Source: Microcaldota archaeon (GTDB taxonomy: Archaea; Micrarchaeota; Micrarchaeia; Micrarchaeales; Micrarchaeaceae). From it: a stretch of 64,000 nucleotides of DNA. The notes under the pieces were generated by a model. The model was not told the DNA's origin and searched no databases. It saw only the letters and a program-made list of their open reading frames with translations. The stretch spans positions 62,001 to 126,000 of the forward strand of contig JAJZJM010000002.1 in assembly GCA_021810105.1 (NCBI GenBank), written 5' to 3'. Positions within the stretch are counted from its first letter, which is position 1. Every line of letters begins with the position of its first letter. Of this stretch, positions 50,740 through 54,684 are shown one piece after another. Made by a program: the position numbers and the translations under genes.

Positions 50740-51435
50740 CTAACGCTTGCTTCTGGTACTTACTCCTATCATATGAAATTCGTTGTCATAACCTATGGCT
50801 GCCTTAAACGCATCAGGCTCCATAGTTACGGTTATGTCAGAATATGGATCGTTTATATAGAAAGTATCCTTGTCGTATCCCTTCACTACGACCCAATGCG
50901 GAGAAGACTCAAGCTCTGGGTTTATTGATTTTGCATCTATAACAACAATAGGTATCTTTCCGCTGTTCAGAGCTTTCTTTATAGTATTTATGCTCGCCTT
51001 ACCGTACATCTCCTTGACCTTTAGTGTGCGTGCCTTTTCCTTTACCTCATTGAATGATGCGGTTAGCGTGTCAAGGTTTATTCCCTCGTATACTGCAAGC
51101 CTTTTTTCGTAGCCTTCGTCCTTTACGTCACTTACAATTTCGGTTTTTGCTCCTCTCTGCGCCAGTGCGTATGCGAGTCCGTATCTTGAACCGTACCAGA
51201 CGCTGCCTGCGACTGCCTGCTGCCATATCTTATATTCTGTATCTTTAGACATTTGCATCTTTTTGTTGATATGCTTTAGCACCATCATTGCACATGCTGC
51301 CGAACTTGTAAACCTCTCAGTCTGAGCATAATTAGGAATGTCAAACATTTTAGATTCCCTTTGTCTTGGCCCGTGTTTTGATGCTAATCTGCTGTTTTTT
51401 GGTTTTTTGTTTGTTGTTTTTCTGTTCATTTTCAC
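50740..51435 (-). CDS. C39-like peptidase-fold protein, probable catalytic Cys lost
   Basis: FDIPNYAQTERFTSSAACAMMVLKHI and SSPHWVVVKGYDKDTFYINDPYSD. Confidence 0.7.
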   Translation of the reverse strand: MKMNRKTTNKKPKNSRLASKHGPRQRESKMFDIPNYAQTERFTSSAACAMMVLKHINKKMQMSKDTEYKIWQQAVAGSVWYGSRYGLAYALAQRGAKTEIVSDVKDEGYEKRLAVYEGINLDTLTASFNEVKEKARTLKVKEMYGKASINTIKKALNSGKIPIVVIDAKSINPELESSPHWVVVKGYDKDTFYINDPYSDITVTMEPDAFKAAIGYDNEFHMIGVSTRSKR

Positions 51436-51450
51436 ACCTTTAAAATAAGA

Positions 51451-51549
51451 TGCAGGGAGGGAGATTTGTTCGCAATTGATTGAACTCCCGCAGGCCTAAG
51501 CCAACGGATCTTGAGTCCGTCGCGTTTGACCAAGCTCCGCCATCCCTGC
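51451..51549 (-). tRNA. tRNA-Leu (CAA) with 14-nt insertion (candidate noncanonical intron) in the T-loop at 51466-51479
   Basis: Acceptor GCAGGGA/TCCCTGC, anticodon arm ACGGA-CTCAAGA-TCCGT, long variable arm GGCTTAGGCC, T-stem GGGAG/CTCCC with 21-nt loop TTCAA-tcaattgcgaacaa-AT. Confidence 0.9.
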
Positions 51550-51727
51550 ACCTTTATCTTTTGTTCATAATATAAATAATTCTTTGCATCTGCATTCTCA
51601 CATTGCAACTAATGCTATTGATTGCTGGAGATATTTAAAGGTTCCCGCTCTTTTTAAGATAGCTTTATAAAGGTATTGTTATAACAGTAATGCTTTAAGA
51701 TTTGTACGCGAGGAATAAAACCTGCTG

Positions 51728-51883
51728 TTGTCATGTGGAAGAACTCTTAAAGTAACAGAAGTAAGAGAGAGGCGCAGAAACCATTTCCGTTATGTTGAGT
51801 GCTGTGGAAATGTGCAACATAAAGGAATAGAATTTTCTGGATTGAGGCATCGACCACTTCAGAGGATAACTTCAAATGGCTAA
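51728..51883 (+). CDS. Possible short zinc-ribbon/Ogr-like protein or its remnant (TTG start; not in ORF track)
   Basis: Frame reads SCGRTLKVTEVRERRRNHFRYVECCGNVQHKGIEFSGLRHRPLQRITSNG*; TATA-like ctttataaag upstream. Confidence 0.3.
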   Translation: MSCGRTLKVTEVRERRRNHFRYVECCGNVQHKGIEFSGLRHRPLQRITSNG

Positions 51884-51887
51884 ACTG

Positions 51888-52820
51888 TTAGCATTTTCTT
51901 AAAATCCTTACCCTGTGCATCTGACACTTAGAGAAATTATTTTCTATCATATTAAACATATGCTGTCTTAACTCTATTGCATGGCCAACGCCATTGATTG
52001 ATATTACCCTTTTATATATCCTAAGTGACTTGATAAAGTTATCTGCCATGTACAGGTTCCTAAAAGATTCAACATAAGTGTTTATCTTGTTTATCTTATA
52101 TTTCTTATAGAAAGGGTATGGCGTATGTAAGTTCACCTCTTTTGCAAGTAATTTAATAATCGGCTCTTTTGCTATATATTTATTAACCAGTCCCTGCATG
52201 GAAAAGTCTATACATTTAGAGATACTTCCTAATTTATATTTTCTCTGCAATGAATCAAGCAGATTTCTATACTGATAAAGTGGACGTTGGTTATAGACGA
52301 AATCTGATATAATATTGTTTTTTGACAGTTCGTAAGCATCTGTTGCAGAGAGTTTTAGAACTCTGTTTGCGTTATAAGCCGCAGTTATGTAAAAGAAAAG
52401 AAATAGTTCAATGCCATCGTCCATTTTAAGGTAAAAGTTGACTAGGTCTCTGAGAGGTGCATCAGAAAACCCGATTTTTATGCTGTGCATCTTTGCAAGA
52501 TAAAATGGCCATTCTATATCGTCATTATATGATGCCTGATTACGGTTCATCCTTGAATCTATACTCCTTCTTGAAATGTCCATAGGCTGCTCTAATAAGA
52601 CCATTTCTGGTTTAACTCTATCAAAAAGATCCGATACAAAATCGCGGAATGCTTGGTCCCTTTTAGTATGCATTGATGGAACCATGACAAATAATCTATT
52701 CGAAAACGTATATGAGATGGTGTTATCCTGTATTCCTTTCTTTATTTCTGCGATTCTTTCATTATCCAAGCTGCAAATCTCTTCGTATAATTTTTTAATA
52801 GAAGACATTTTCTTTGCCAT
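51888..52820 (-). CDS. TraB/Tiki (EreA/ChaN-fold)-like protein, candidate peptidase
   Basis: FVMVPSMHTKRDQAFRDFVSDLFDRVKPEMVLLEQP and C-terminal ISINGVGHAIELRQHM (GxxH) resemble TraB/Tiki motifs. Confidence 0.6.
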   Translation of the reverse strand: MAKKMSSIKKLYEEICSLDNERIAEIKKGIQDNTISYTFSNRLFVMVPSMHTKRDQAFRDFVSDLFDRVKPEMVLLEQPMDISRRSIDSRMNRNQASYNDDIEWPFYLAKMHSIKIGFSDAPLRDLVNFYLKMDDGIELFLFFYITAAYNANRVLKLSATDAYELSKNNIISDFVYNQRPLYQYRNLLDSLQRKYKLGSISKCIDFSMQGLVNKYIAKEPIIKLLAKEVNLHTPYPFYKKYKINKINTYVESFRNLYMADNFIKSLRIYKRVISINGVGHAIELRQHMFNMIENNFSKCQMHRVRILRKC

Positions 52821-52824
52821 TACC

Positions 52825-53814
52825 TTACCTTAACTTTATTTTCTCAACTTCTACAGTCTCCTTTCTCAAAAGGTTTATATTGCATTGTCTTCCACTTTCA
52901 TTTTTTACGAAATTTAGATGTTTAAACCTTTCCCCTGATTTTGACCAAATTTCTTCCCATGACTCCTTGAAAAGGTTACCCATTACCAATGTGCGTATCG
53001 TAACGCACGGAGTAACCGAACCATCAACAAAGACACCTGCTCTGAATAATCCGGCTGTGCAGGTCTTAAAACCGTAACTCTCTGACAGTGGAGGTTTTCC
53101 GTTAGAGCAACTACTTTCTTCTACCACGCCCTTTACCTTTACGTCTTCTCTGTTCATATCTTTAGTTAGCTTGATTGCATTTTCACGTATATTGAGCATT
53201 TCAGGAAGTTCAAGTTTCATGTCAAACCATCTCTTGCCCAAAATAAAAGTCGGTTGAAGTGTTTCAAGATTGAACATTCTCAGTGCCTTATATTTTGAAA
53301 GTGCATACTCCTCAGTCTTCAATACGTCATTGCGATTTGCATTTGTAAGAATGAGCCCTATAGAGAAAGGTATTTTATTTTTTTCTAGAACATCTAGGCC
53401 AGCAAGCGTCCTTTCTGTGAGACCTCTTGTAGCGTCATTAACTTTCGAATCTGCACTATCTATTGAAACTTGTATAGATAGCCCTTTTGTGACCTGCTCT
53501 TTTAACTTCAGAAGTTTCTCTTCTCCCATTGATGAAAGCAACGTTCCGTTTGTGCTTATCCCTACAGTGTGATTAAAAGTTTTAAGCGCAAGTTCTATTA
53601 TTTCTAATATATCATTCCTTAAAAATGGCTCGCCACCTAACAGAATAACTTCGAATGGAGCAGCCTCCTTTTGCGTCTTATCAAAAAGGTAAGCTAGATT
53701 CTGGAATGGTGGTGTTATATTGGTAAATGGTTGGGCATAGCAATAATGACAACGAAGATTGCATATATGATTTACTTCAAATTCAATTCTAAAAGGATAG
53801 CTAGGTAAAATCAT
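52825..53814 (-). CDS. Radical SAM enzyme with SPASM/twitch-like C-terminus
   Basis: FEVNHICNLRCHYCYAQP (CxxxCxxC), ILLGGEPFLRNDI; C-terminal CTAGLFRAGVFVDGSVTPCVTIRTLVMGNLFKESWEEIWS...GRQC. Confidence 0.92.
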   Translation of the reverse strand: MILPSYPFRIEFEVNHICNLRCHYCYAQPFTNITPPFQNLAYLFDKTQKEAAPFEVILLGGEPFLRNDILEIIELALKTFNHTVGISTNGTLLSSMGEEKLLKLKEQVTKGLSIQVSIDSADSKVNDATRGLTERTLAGLDVLEKNKIPFSIGLILTNANRNDVLKTEEYALSKYKALRMFNLETLQPTFILGKRWFDMKLELPEMLNIRENAIKLTKDMNREDVKVKGVVEESSCSNGKPPLSESYGFKTCTAGLFRAGVFVDGSVTPCVTIRTLVMGNLFKESWEEIWSKSGERFKHLNFVKNESGRQCNINLLRKETVEVEKIKLR

Positions 53815-53824
53815 CTAAAACACT

Positions 53825-54307
53825 TTATGCTTTGATATTCAATTGTTCCAGTACTGCTTGCTGATTTTCTGATAGTGTTTCTGATGGTTCTTCAATCATT
53901 TCTCTTAATAGCCATATTACTGTGTTATTGACTAAGAATATTTCTCTGGTCTCTACGTTCTTTACGAAACCATAGTCTTCAGTATCTTTGCGTATTTTGA
54001 TAAGATCAGCTAGTTTCTGCTCTGCCGTTTTTCTAACTGACAAATCTTCTCTTTTTTCAGCATTTTTTTCACTATCTCGGGCAATAGTTTTTGGCTGATG
54101 AATACTCATATCCGTATATTTTACATTATCGTAAACCTTATCTGCCCAATCACCATCTTTATCATTCCAATTTGTATCTCCCCACCATATGTCATTATGC
54201 CAAGCTTGTTTTGCCCTTGTAAATTCCTGATCTGCCGATCGTGCATATAGACGTATGCTTATTTCTCCTTTTGTAGGGCATTCCTTTGTTGTTTTTTCCA
54301 TTTCCAT
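53825..54307 (-). CDS. Candidate radical-SAM peptide substrate/precursor with repeated aromatic-X-Asp/Asn motifs
   Basis: AWHNDIWWGDTNWNDKDGDWADKVYDNVKYTD; sits directly upstream of the radical SAM gene with a 10-nt gap. Confidence 0.6.
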   Translation of the reverse strand: MEMEKTTKECPTKGEISIRLYARSADQEFTRAKQAWHNDIWWGDTNWNDKDGDWADKVYDNVKYTDMSIHQPKTIARDSEKNAEKREDLSVRKTAEQKLADLIKIRKDTEDYGFVKNVETREIFLVNNTVIWLLREMIEEPSETLSENQQAVLEQLNIKA

Positions 54308-54358
54308 TGTTTCGCCGTTTATTTTTTTTATTTTACAAATGTATGTAGACTGTTAATT

Positions 54359-54378
54359 TTGCTCAATATTGCTCAATA
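54359..54378. repeat. Perfect tandem 10-bp repeat (TTGCTCAATA x2) in the promoter region of the radical SAM cassette
   Basis: ttgctcaatattgctcaata, about 52 bp upstream of the 54307 start codon, next to a TATATA sequence. Confidence 0.8.
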
Positions 54379-54684
54379 TATATGCGTGCTCGTGATATCT
54401 ATTGAGAGTGACCTTCCTGCAGTATGCTTCGTCGTGCGAGTTGTTTGCATTGTTTTGTGTCTGAGCGCTGGCTGCTTTCTTCTTGCTACCTTTGTCCTTA
54501 TGAGCAACGCCTTATAGCAGCTTGCGCAAGAAAGTCTTCTTTCTACAGGCATGCTGCCAGTAAGGAATGCCGATGAGGGCAGCACGATCTTTACTTCGCC
54601 TCTGCCGAGCTCTTTTTCGCATACAGCACATTTCGCTATTCCTCCGGCTACACTATATCGAGTACCTAGTTCTGCAACGTTCAT
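54373..54684 (-). CDS. Small zinc-ribbon-like protein
   Basis: CAVCEKELGRGE...LSCASCYKALL; basic C-terminus. Confidence 0.6.
   Translation of the reverse strand: MNVAELGTRYSVAGGIAKCAVCEKELGRGEVKIVLPSSAFLTGSMPVERRLSCASCYKALLIRTKVARRKQPALRHKTMQTTRTTKHTAGRSLSIDITSTHIY

Follow-up and report, generated by a model that had tools for sequence, protein, structure and literature searches.

Results

Organization of the locus

The window, by which we mean the whole 64,000-nucleotide stretch of Micrarchaeota DNA analysed here, belongs to a genome of 821 kb and contains three consecutive minus-strand genes, here called A, B and C. The ORF positions confirm the layout given by an initial annotation of this DNA, with gaps of 10 nt between A and B and 4 nt between B and C.

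53825..54307, minus strand: gene A, an ORF of 160 aa; precursor-like, with homologs only beside gene B
52825..53814, minus strand: gene B, an ORF of 329 aa; a radical SAM enzyme with a predicted Twitch-type auxiliary domain
51888..52820, minus strand: gene C, an ORF of 310 aa; TraB/Tiki-superfamily-like

The cassette had also been described as AT-rich, and indeed its G+C content is 35.5%, versus 43.5% for the window, a value as low being found in only 0.3% of windows of equal length. The quoted sequence motifs are likewise all present, namely CNLRCHYC and CTAG...GSVTPC...GNLFKESW...GRQC in gene B and VPSMHTK...KPEMVLLEQP...NGVGHAIELRQHM in gene C. No transporter adjoins the cassette, no flanking repeat able to explain mobility was found around it, and Rfam, promoter and terminator scans returned nothing useful.

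Two neighbouring features deserve mention in their own right. A C39-like peptidase gene (50740-51435, minus strand; DUF3335, 3.7e-25) was weighed as a possible leader peptidase of the cassette and was rejected as a member, because it occupies the same site in relatives that lack A, B and C; the genus conserves it near this position (91% in G008, the closest genome of the same genus that has the region). A tRNA-Leu-like gene (51451-51549, minus strand; anticodon CAA) has the acceptor stem GCAGGGA/TCCCTGC and a T arm that is enlarged; it was missed by ARAGORN and is near-identical in G008. It perhaps holds a short intron, and of 200 shuffles only 1 folded equally well.

A and B are an invariant pair

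Among 301 genomes of the Micrarchaeota phylum, A and B each occur in the same 8 genomes and at the same 10 places: the window genome, G009, G055, G217, G023, G093, G091 and, at three places, G230, a draft bin in which two of the three copies may be strains. The two genes are adjacent at all 10 places, 2-20 nt apart and in constant order. The pair is absent from the other genomes of the window's genus (0/8), and no relatives were found in viral contigs. A genome-wide scan with the window B alone found nothing, while one with a three-row B alignment found 6 loci, all in Micrarchaeota. Comparison of two copies within one relative indicates purifying selection on A, B and C, with dN/dS values of 0.22, 0.06 and 0.12, respectively.

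Gene A resembles a three-part precursor

Gene A matched no family in Pfam or NCBIfam, and its profile gave only weak, unrelated matches among PDB sequences. Three segments can be told apart in its alignment and AF2 model.

54221..54256, minus strand: leader-like motif of A, residues 18-29 (IRLYARSADQEF), from the alignment; AF2 strand at 18-22
54110..54202, minus strand: core-like segment of A, residues 36-66, from the motif test; low pLDDT
53828..54016, minus strand: C-terminal domain of A, residues 98-160; conserved, with three strands then two helices in the AF2 model

The N-terminal motif is common to all A proteins (alignment consensus LIPYARSADQEF, with E28 invariant and Q27 nearly so), as is the C-terminal stretch I.IR...GFV.N..T..IF.....T...L, and the segment between these conserved ends varies among loci in length, sequence and number of aromatic triads. 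In the AF2 model, built from ten sequences, pLDDT is below 50 over residues 28-71 and 73-96 and reaches 80-88 in blocks of residues 101-160, which form the three strands and two helices; an extra strand at residues 18-22 falls within the N-terminal motif, and the overall pTM is 0.52. Since the C-terminal domain holds the only other strands, the N-terminal strand presumably pairs with them, as read from the secondary-structure string rather than from coordinates.

The window A contains the triads 36 WHN, 42 WGD, 47 WND, 54 WAD, 59 YDN and 64 YTD (residue numbers), which places all six previously reported W/Y-x-D/N motifs of residues 36-66 exactly where they had been quoted. Across eight independent A cores, 37 of 45 core aromatics have D, N or Q at the +2 position, whereas 20,000 composition-preserving shuffles gave a mean of 10.6 and a maximum of 22, and 0/20,000 reached the observed count. 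Spacings of -2, -1, +1, +3 and +4 stay at chance level in the same test, and aromatics in the N- and C-terminal ends of the window A lie outside the +2 rule. The triads themselves differ from locus to locus: the G217 core reads WDD WHD WDN WDN WGN WDN and that of G093 WDN WDN YKD YVN YKD, W-x-Q occurs five times in the G230 and G091 cores, and the G009 core mixes W-x-D and W-x-Q. In two close copies, the W and Q of all five triads are unchanged and a middle residue is altered (WTQ/WNQ). The +2 test thus supports the initial annotation in its claim that A is the substrate of B by way of aromatic-x-D/N motifs, with the motif now widened to include Gln. Homologs that keep the operon and lack the motif had been named as the observation that would speak against this claim, and the comparison did not overturn it: 7 of the 8 independent A lineages keep 3-7 triads while the rest of the segment changes, and a paralogue, the third A copy of G230, has one clear triad only, YSN.

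As a separate observation, the G093 precursor has an in-frame TGA (L020 20-22) just upstream of the leader motif and about 20 nt from the contig end, which reflects either an assembly error or decay.

Could A instead be a tryptophan-rich structural or binding protein, with B acting elsewhere? The folded C-terminal domain of the AF2 model and the purifying selection on A would suit such a role. We nonetheless consider it very improbable, given that A and B are never found apart among the 301 genomes, that the triad segment is predicted to be disordered, and that its length and triad number vary while the ends stay constant. Conservation of the genes elsewhere, purifying selection and a core +2 motif far above shuffled sequences together set the cassette apart from chance; it is real, conserved and very probably of the RiPP type. 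At the same time, two features of A count against a RiPP cassette: it is long for a RiPP precursor, and the core does not lie at the C terminus. The lack of an adjoining transporter, the single triad of the third G230 copy and, for B, the scores under the family cut-offs and the missing second auxiliary-cluster motif described below weigh on the same side.

The C-terminal domain of A is reminiscent of PqqD-type RREs, with three strands followed by helices and a leader strand predicted together with them. It differs in having two helices only and no Pfam PqqD match (PF05402), and its Foldseek matches to RRE structures (5v1u, ThcOx) are not significant, with E values of 1.3-2.3. No separate PqqD-like protein was found in the window genome.

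Gene B is a radical SAM enzyme of probable Twitch type

Gene B matches the Pfam families Radical_SAM (8.6e-19) and SPASM (1.8e-8) and contains two cysteine motifs.

53740..53763, minus strand: CX3CX2C radical SAM cluster motif of B (C18, C22, C25), present in 10/10 sequences
53005..53061, minus strand: CX12GX4C auxiliary-cluster motif of B (C252-C270), present in 10/10 sequences

The aligned B enzymes are 43-52% identical to the window B, and CX3CX2C is invariant in the 8 aligned sequences. Four cysteines are conserved in the auxiliary domain, one before and one after CX12GX4C in addition to its own two, and C236 and C311 are the further ligand candidates. A full SPASM domain has the seven-cysteine motif CX9-15GX4C-CX2CX5CX3C-C and binds two auxiliary clusters; the second auxiliary-cluster motif, CX2CX5CX3C, is absent from 10/10 B sequences, so that a single auxiliary cluster would be expected. 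Judged by its cysteines, then, B is of the Twitch type rather than full SPASM, and the earlier label of SPASM-like holds for the Pfam match but not for the cysteine set. The radical SAM domain begins right at the start of B, leaving no recognition domain ahead of CX3CX2C.

Among the best 25 NCBIfam matches listed, B lies below every curated cut-off. It scores 75.7 bits against a cut-off of 650 for the peptide cross-linker WgkB (3.4e-21, over the radical SAM domain), 44.6 against 450 for DynA and 44.5 against 340 for PapB, and equally well with non-peptide enzymes such as the heme synthase AhbD (77.0 bits). With no cut-off passed, and with peptide maturases (ScmE, WgkB) and heme enzymes mixed among the best matches, B is not assignable to a known maturase family. 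PADLOC matches the radical SAM domain of B to pVip (2.7e-19), which would make B a viperin-like or other defence enzyme. We find this scarcely credible and reject a viperin identity, because the NCBIfam viperin model gives B 49.8 bits where its cut-off is 180, and because B carries an auxiliary-cluster domain and is constantly partnered by A.

The chemistry of the pair

Radical SAM enzymes such as OscB, XncB and YxdB form cross-links at Trp-x-Asn/Asp and Tyr-x-Asp, from a ring carbon to C-beta (PMC11002830). These Trp and Tyr precedents, taken with the +2 rule, make an i,i+2 cross-link from ring to C-beta the most likely chemistry in A, although Gln is absent as a cross-linked residue among the precedents and its presence in the triads counts against a cyclophane (PMC11002830). 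The triceptide or 3-CyFE systems (XncB, OscB, MscB, YxdB; PMC11002830) likewise place an auxiliary-domain radical SAM enzyme beside an aromatic-x-Asn/Asp precursor with i,i+2 spacing. The present cassette differs from them in being archaeal, in a B that lies under all curated cut-offs shown and is apparently Twitch rather than seven-cysteine SPASM, in its use of Gln, and in a core flanked by an N-terminal motif on one side and by a folded C-terminal domain on the other.

Radical SAM peptide maturases perform many reactions (PMC11002830), and B clusters with no single family and has a Twitch-type cysteine set, so the same A-B pair might carry out hydroxylation, epimerisation or splicing, or form other links within the triads (ether, C-N). 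We regard such chemistry as rather unlikely, for the fixed two-residue spacing fits an i,i+2 cross-link, whereas a modification of one residue has no obvious need for a partner at +2.

The bioactive peptide itself might also be questioned. The pathways to PQQ and mycofactocin likewise combine a radical SAM enzyme, a small protein partner and a peptidase, and this shared layout, together with the lack of a nearby transporter, would suit A and B as makers of a peptide-derived redox cofactor. That role seems improbable to us, since A and B are confined to 8 of 301 genomes and patchy within the genus, and since their cores hold 1-7 triads where a cofactor pathway should show a single fixed core along with a conserved client enzyme.

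A changing set of peptidase-like neighbours

The third gene differs from place to place. Of the 10 places, 4 have a TraB/Tiki-like protein, another 4 have one type of HExxH protein, 1 has a second HExxH type and 1 has no such gene; a peptidase-like neighbour drawn from three unrelated families thus lies within 84 nt at 9/10 places, and at 5/10 it stands co-directionally and directly behind B. What is conserved is therefore the peptidase-like neighbour and not TraB, and the expectation that all three genes would co-occur is not borne out: TraB is absent at 6/10 places and is one of three interchangeable neighbours. At the three TraB places other than the window, the gene is divergent and 65-84 nt from A. 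In G055, G217, G023 and G093 the neighbour is a protein unrelated to gene C, with HExxH plus a downstream Glu (H183, E184, H187 and E204, unchanged across 4 sequences); the third G230 pair is followed by the second HExxH type (HELIH), with a weak SprT-like match; and in G009, which has no peptidase neighbour, B ends 20 nt from a tRNA-Glu gene. The B tree is near star-shaped, with 5 of 7 inner branches open, so that no count of peptidase swaps can be drawn from it.

The gene C family has H51, E77, R254, G277 and H280 invariant in 11 sequences. Its first His motif, Glu, Arg and final GxGH, along with a weak Ere-type match, are shared with the superfamily of TraB/PrgY, ChaN, Ere and Tiki, from which it differs in falling under the Pfam cut-offs (best E 0.0051 for PF01963 and 0.019 for PF04187 among its relatives, and no significant match for the window copy) and, in the window copy, in reading PSMH at the first His motif. 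The AF2 model has a pLDDT of 87.7; its fold matches are weak, with Ere-type 3b55/2rad at ranks 4-5 (E 0.07-0.09), and the sole match below 0.001 is to a chain of Tetrahymena complex IV. A search of the gene C profile against PDB sequences found nothing. The invariant His, Glu and Arg, the GxGH motif and the Ere-type match thus bear out the initial assignment of this protein as TraB/Tiki-superfamily-like, if weakly by score.

Two further observations concern these neighbours. A Micrarchaeota family of HExxH proteins, about 280 aa long and without a Pfam family, occurs in 26 of the 301 genomes and mostly stands alone (loci L076-L091 and L092-L109). Fragments of TraB-like and HExxH genes lie near intact cassettes (L069, that is G230:C20, and L055, L057 and L058), a locus of repeated duplication and decay.

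In CPR bacteria, Tiki/TraB and zincin-type peptidases occur in graspetide loci, where they were proposed to remove leaders (PMC8939145). Branch 2 of these loci recalls the present cassette in its tiny-genome lineages and in its zincin, Tiki/TraB and SPASM radical SAM neighbours (PMC8939145). The cassette, however, lacks an ATP-grasp ligase, its presumed cross-linker being the radical SAM enzyme, and the features reported for the graspetide precursors are not found in those of the cassette (PMC8939145). Given the peptidase neighbours of those loci, an exchange of peptidases is plausible and also not entirely new.

Gain, loss and the retained peptidase

Synteny with G008 delimits the stretch that carries the cassette.

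51672..54379, no strand: stretch with the cassette, missing at the syntenic site in G008

About 260 nt stand in its place, and the gene order of G008 is otherwise that of the window: TyrRS, glycosyltransferase, phosphodiesterase, C39-like, nothing, orf103 and TRM. In G232, a Nudix gene and the HExxH-II gene flank a site from which A'B' is missing, and a remnant (L061 2534-2656) that matches the last 41 residues of B' adjoins the intact HExxH-II gene, showing that A'B' was deleted there and the peptidase gene retained; that gene is open, with a dN/dS of 0.35 versus G230. Loss of the cassette thus occurs on occasion, and perhaps gain as well.

This retention bears on what the neighbour does, and leaves immunity as open as maturation. 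TraB/PrgY proteins are pheromone inhibitors, which favours an immunity or product-degrading factor over a maturation protease, as do the intact HExxH-II and TraB-like genes that G232 keeps without A'B' and the mostly standalone occurrence of these families in genomes without A and B (TraB-like in 12 and HExxH-I in 26 of 301). Yet standalone copies may serve another cellular role, which would also explain a retained peptidase, the pattern expected of an immunity gene, and a place directly behind B is expected of a maturation protease too. An immunity role is quite possible, in our estimation, and is compatible with A and B as a RiPP pair.

Discussion

We propose that A is a three-part precursor in which an N-terminal recognition motif is followed by a disordered core of W/Y-x-D/N/Q triads and then by a folded domain at the C terminus. 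This domain, joined by the N-terminal motif as an added strand, would present the core to B, which would generate a 5'-deoxyadenosyl radical and then oxidise each triad. The likeliest product would be a C-C bond from the aromatic ring to the beta-carbon of the residue at +2, giving a three-residue cyclophane with a change of -2 Da per triad, and the neighbouring peptidase-like protein would either release the modified core or protect the producer from it. Gene linkage, the triad pattern, selection, the predicted disorder of the core and fold of the C-terminal domain, and the peptidase-like residues of the neighbour come directly from the data; modification, ring chemistry, recognition and the part played by the peptidase are deduced from them. 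Overall, we think it reasonably likely that the cassette is of the RiPP type, acts by this scheme and is mobile or frequently lost.

A more specific version of this scheme can be advanced tentatively: recognition might occur in cis, the C-terminal domain binding the leader strand and displaying the looped core, with a Twitch-type B installing 1-7 cyclophanes on W/Y-x-D/N/Q and interchangeable peptidases acting in maturation or immunity and persisting after the cassette is lost, the whole forming a RiPP class of DPANN archaea. According to a 2025 survey, archaea, among them DPANN, have clusters for ranthipeptides and sactipeptides, and the portion of it available to us describes no A-B cassette (PMC12144867).

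It would be unusual for the core of a precursor to be followed by a folded domain, and the formation of several rings by an enzyme with one auxiliary cluster would bear on the role of these clusters. If the proposal is correct, genome-reduced archaea of the symbiont type make cross-linked peptides that can be tied to named genes, and these peptides might serve in host contact or in rivalry.
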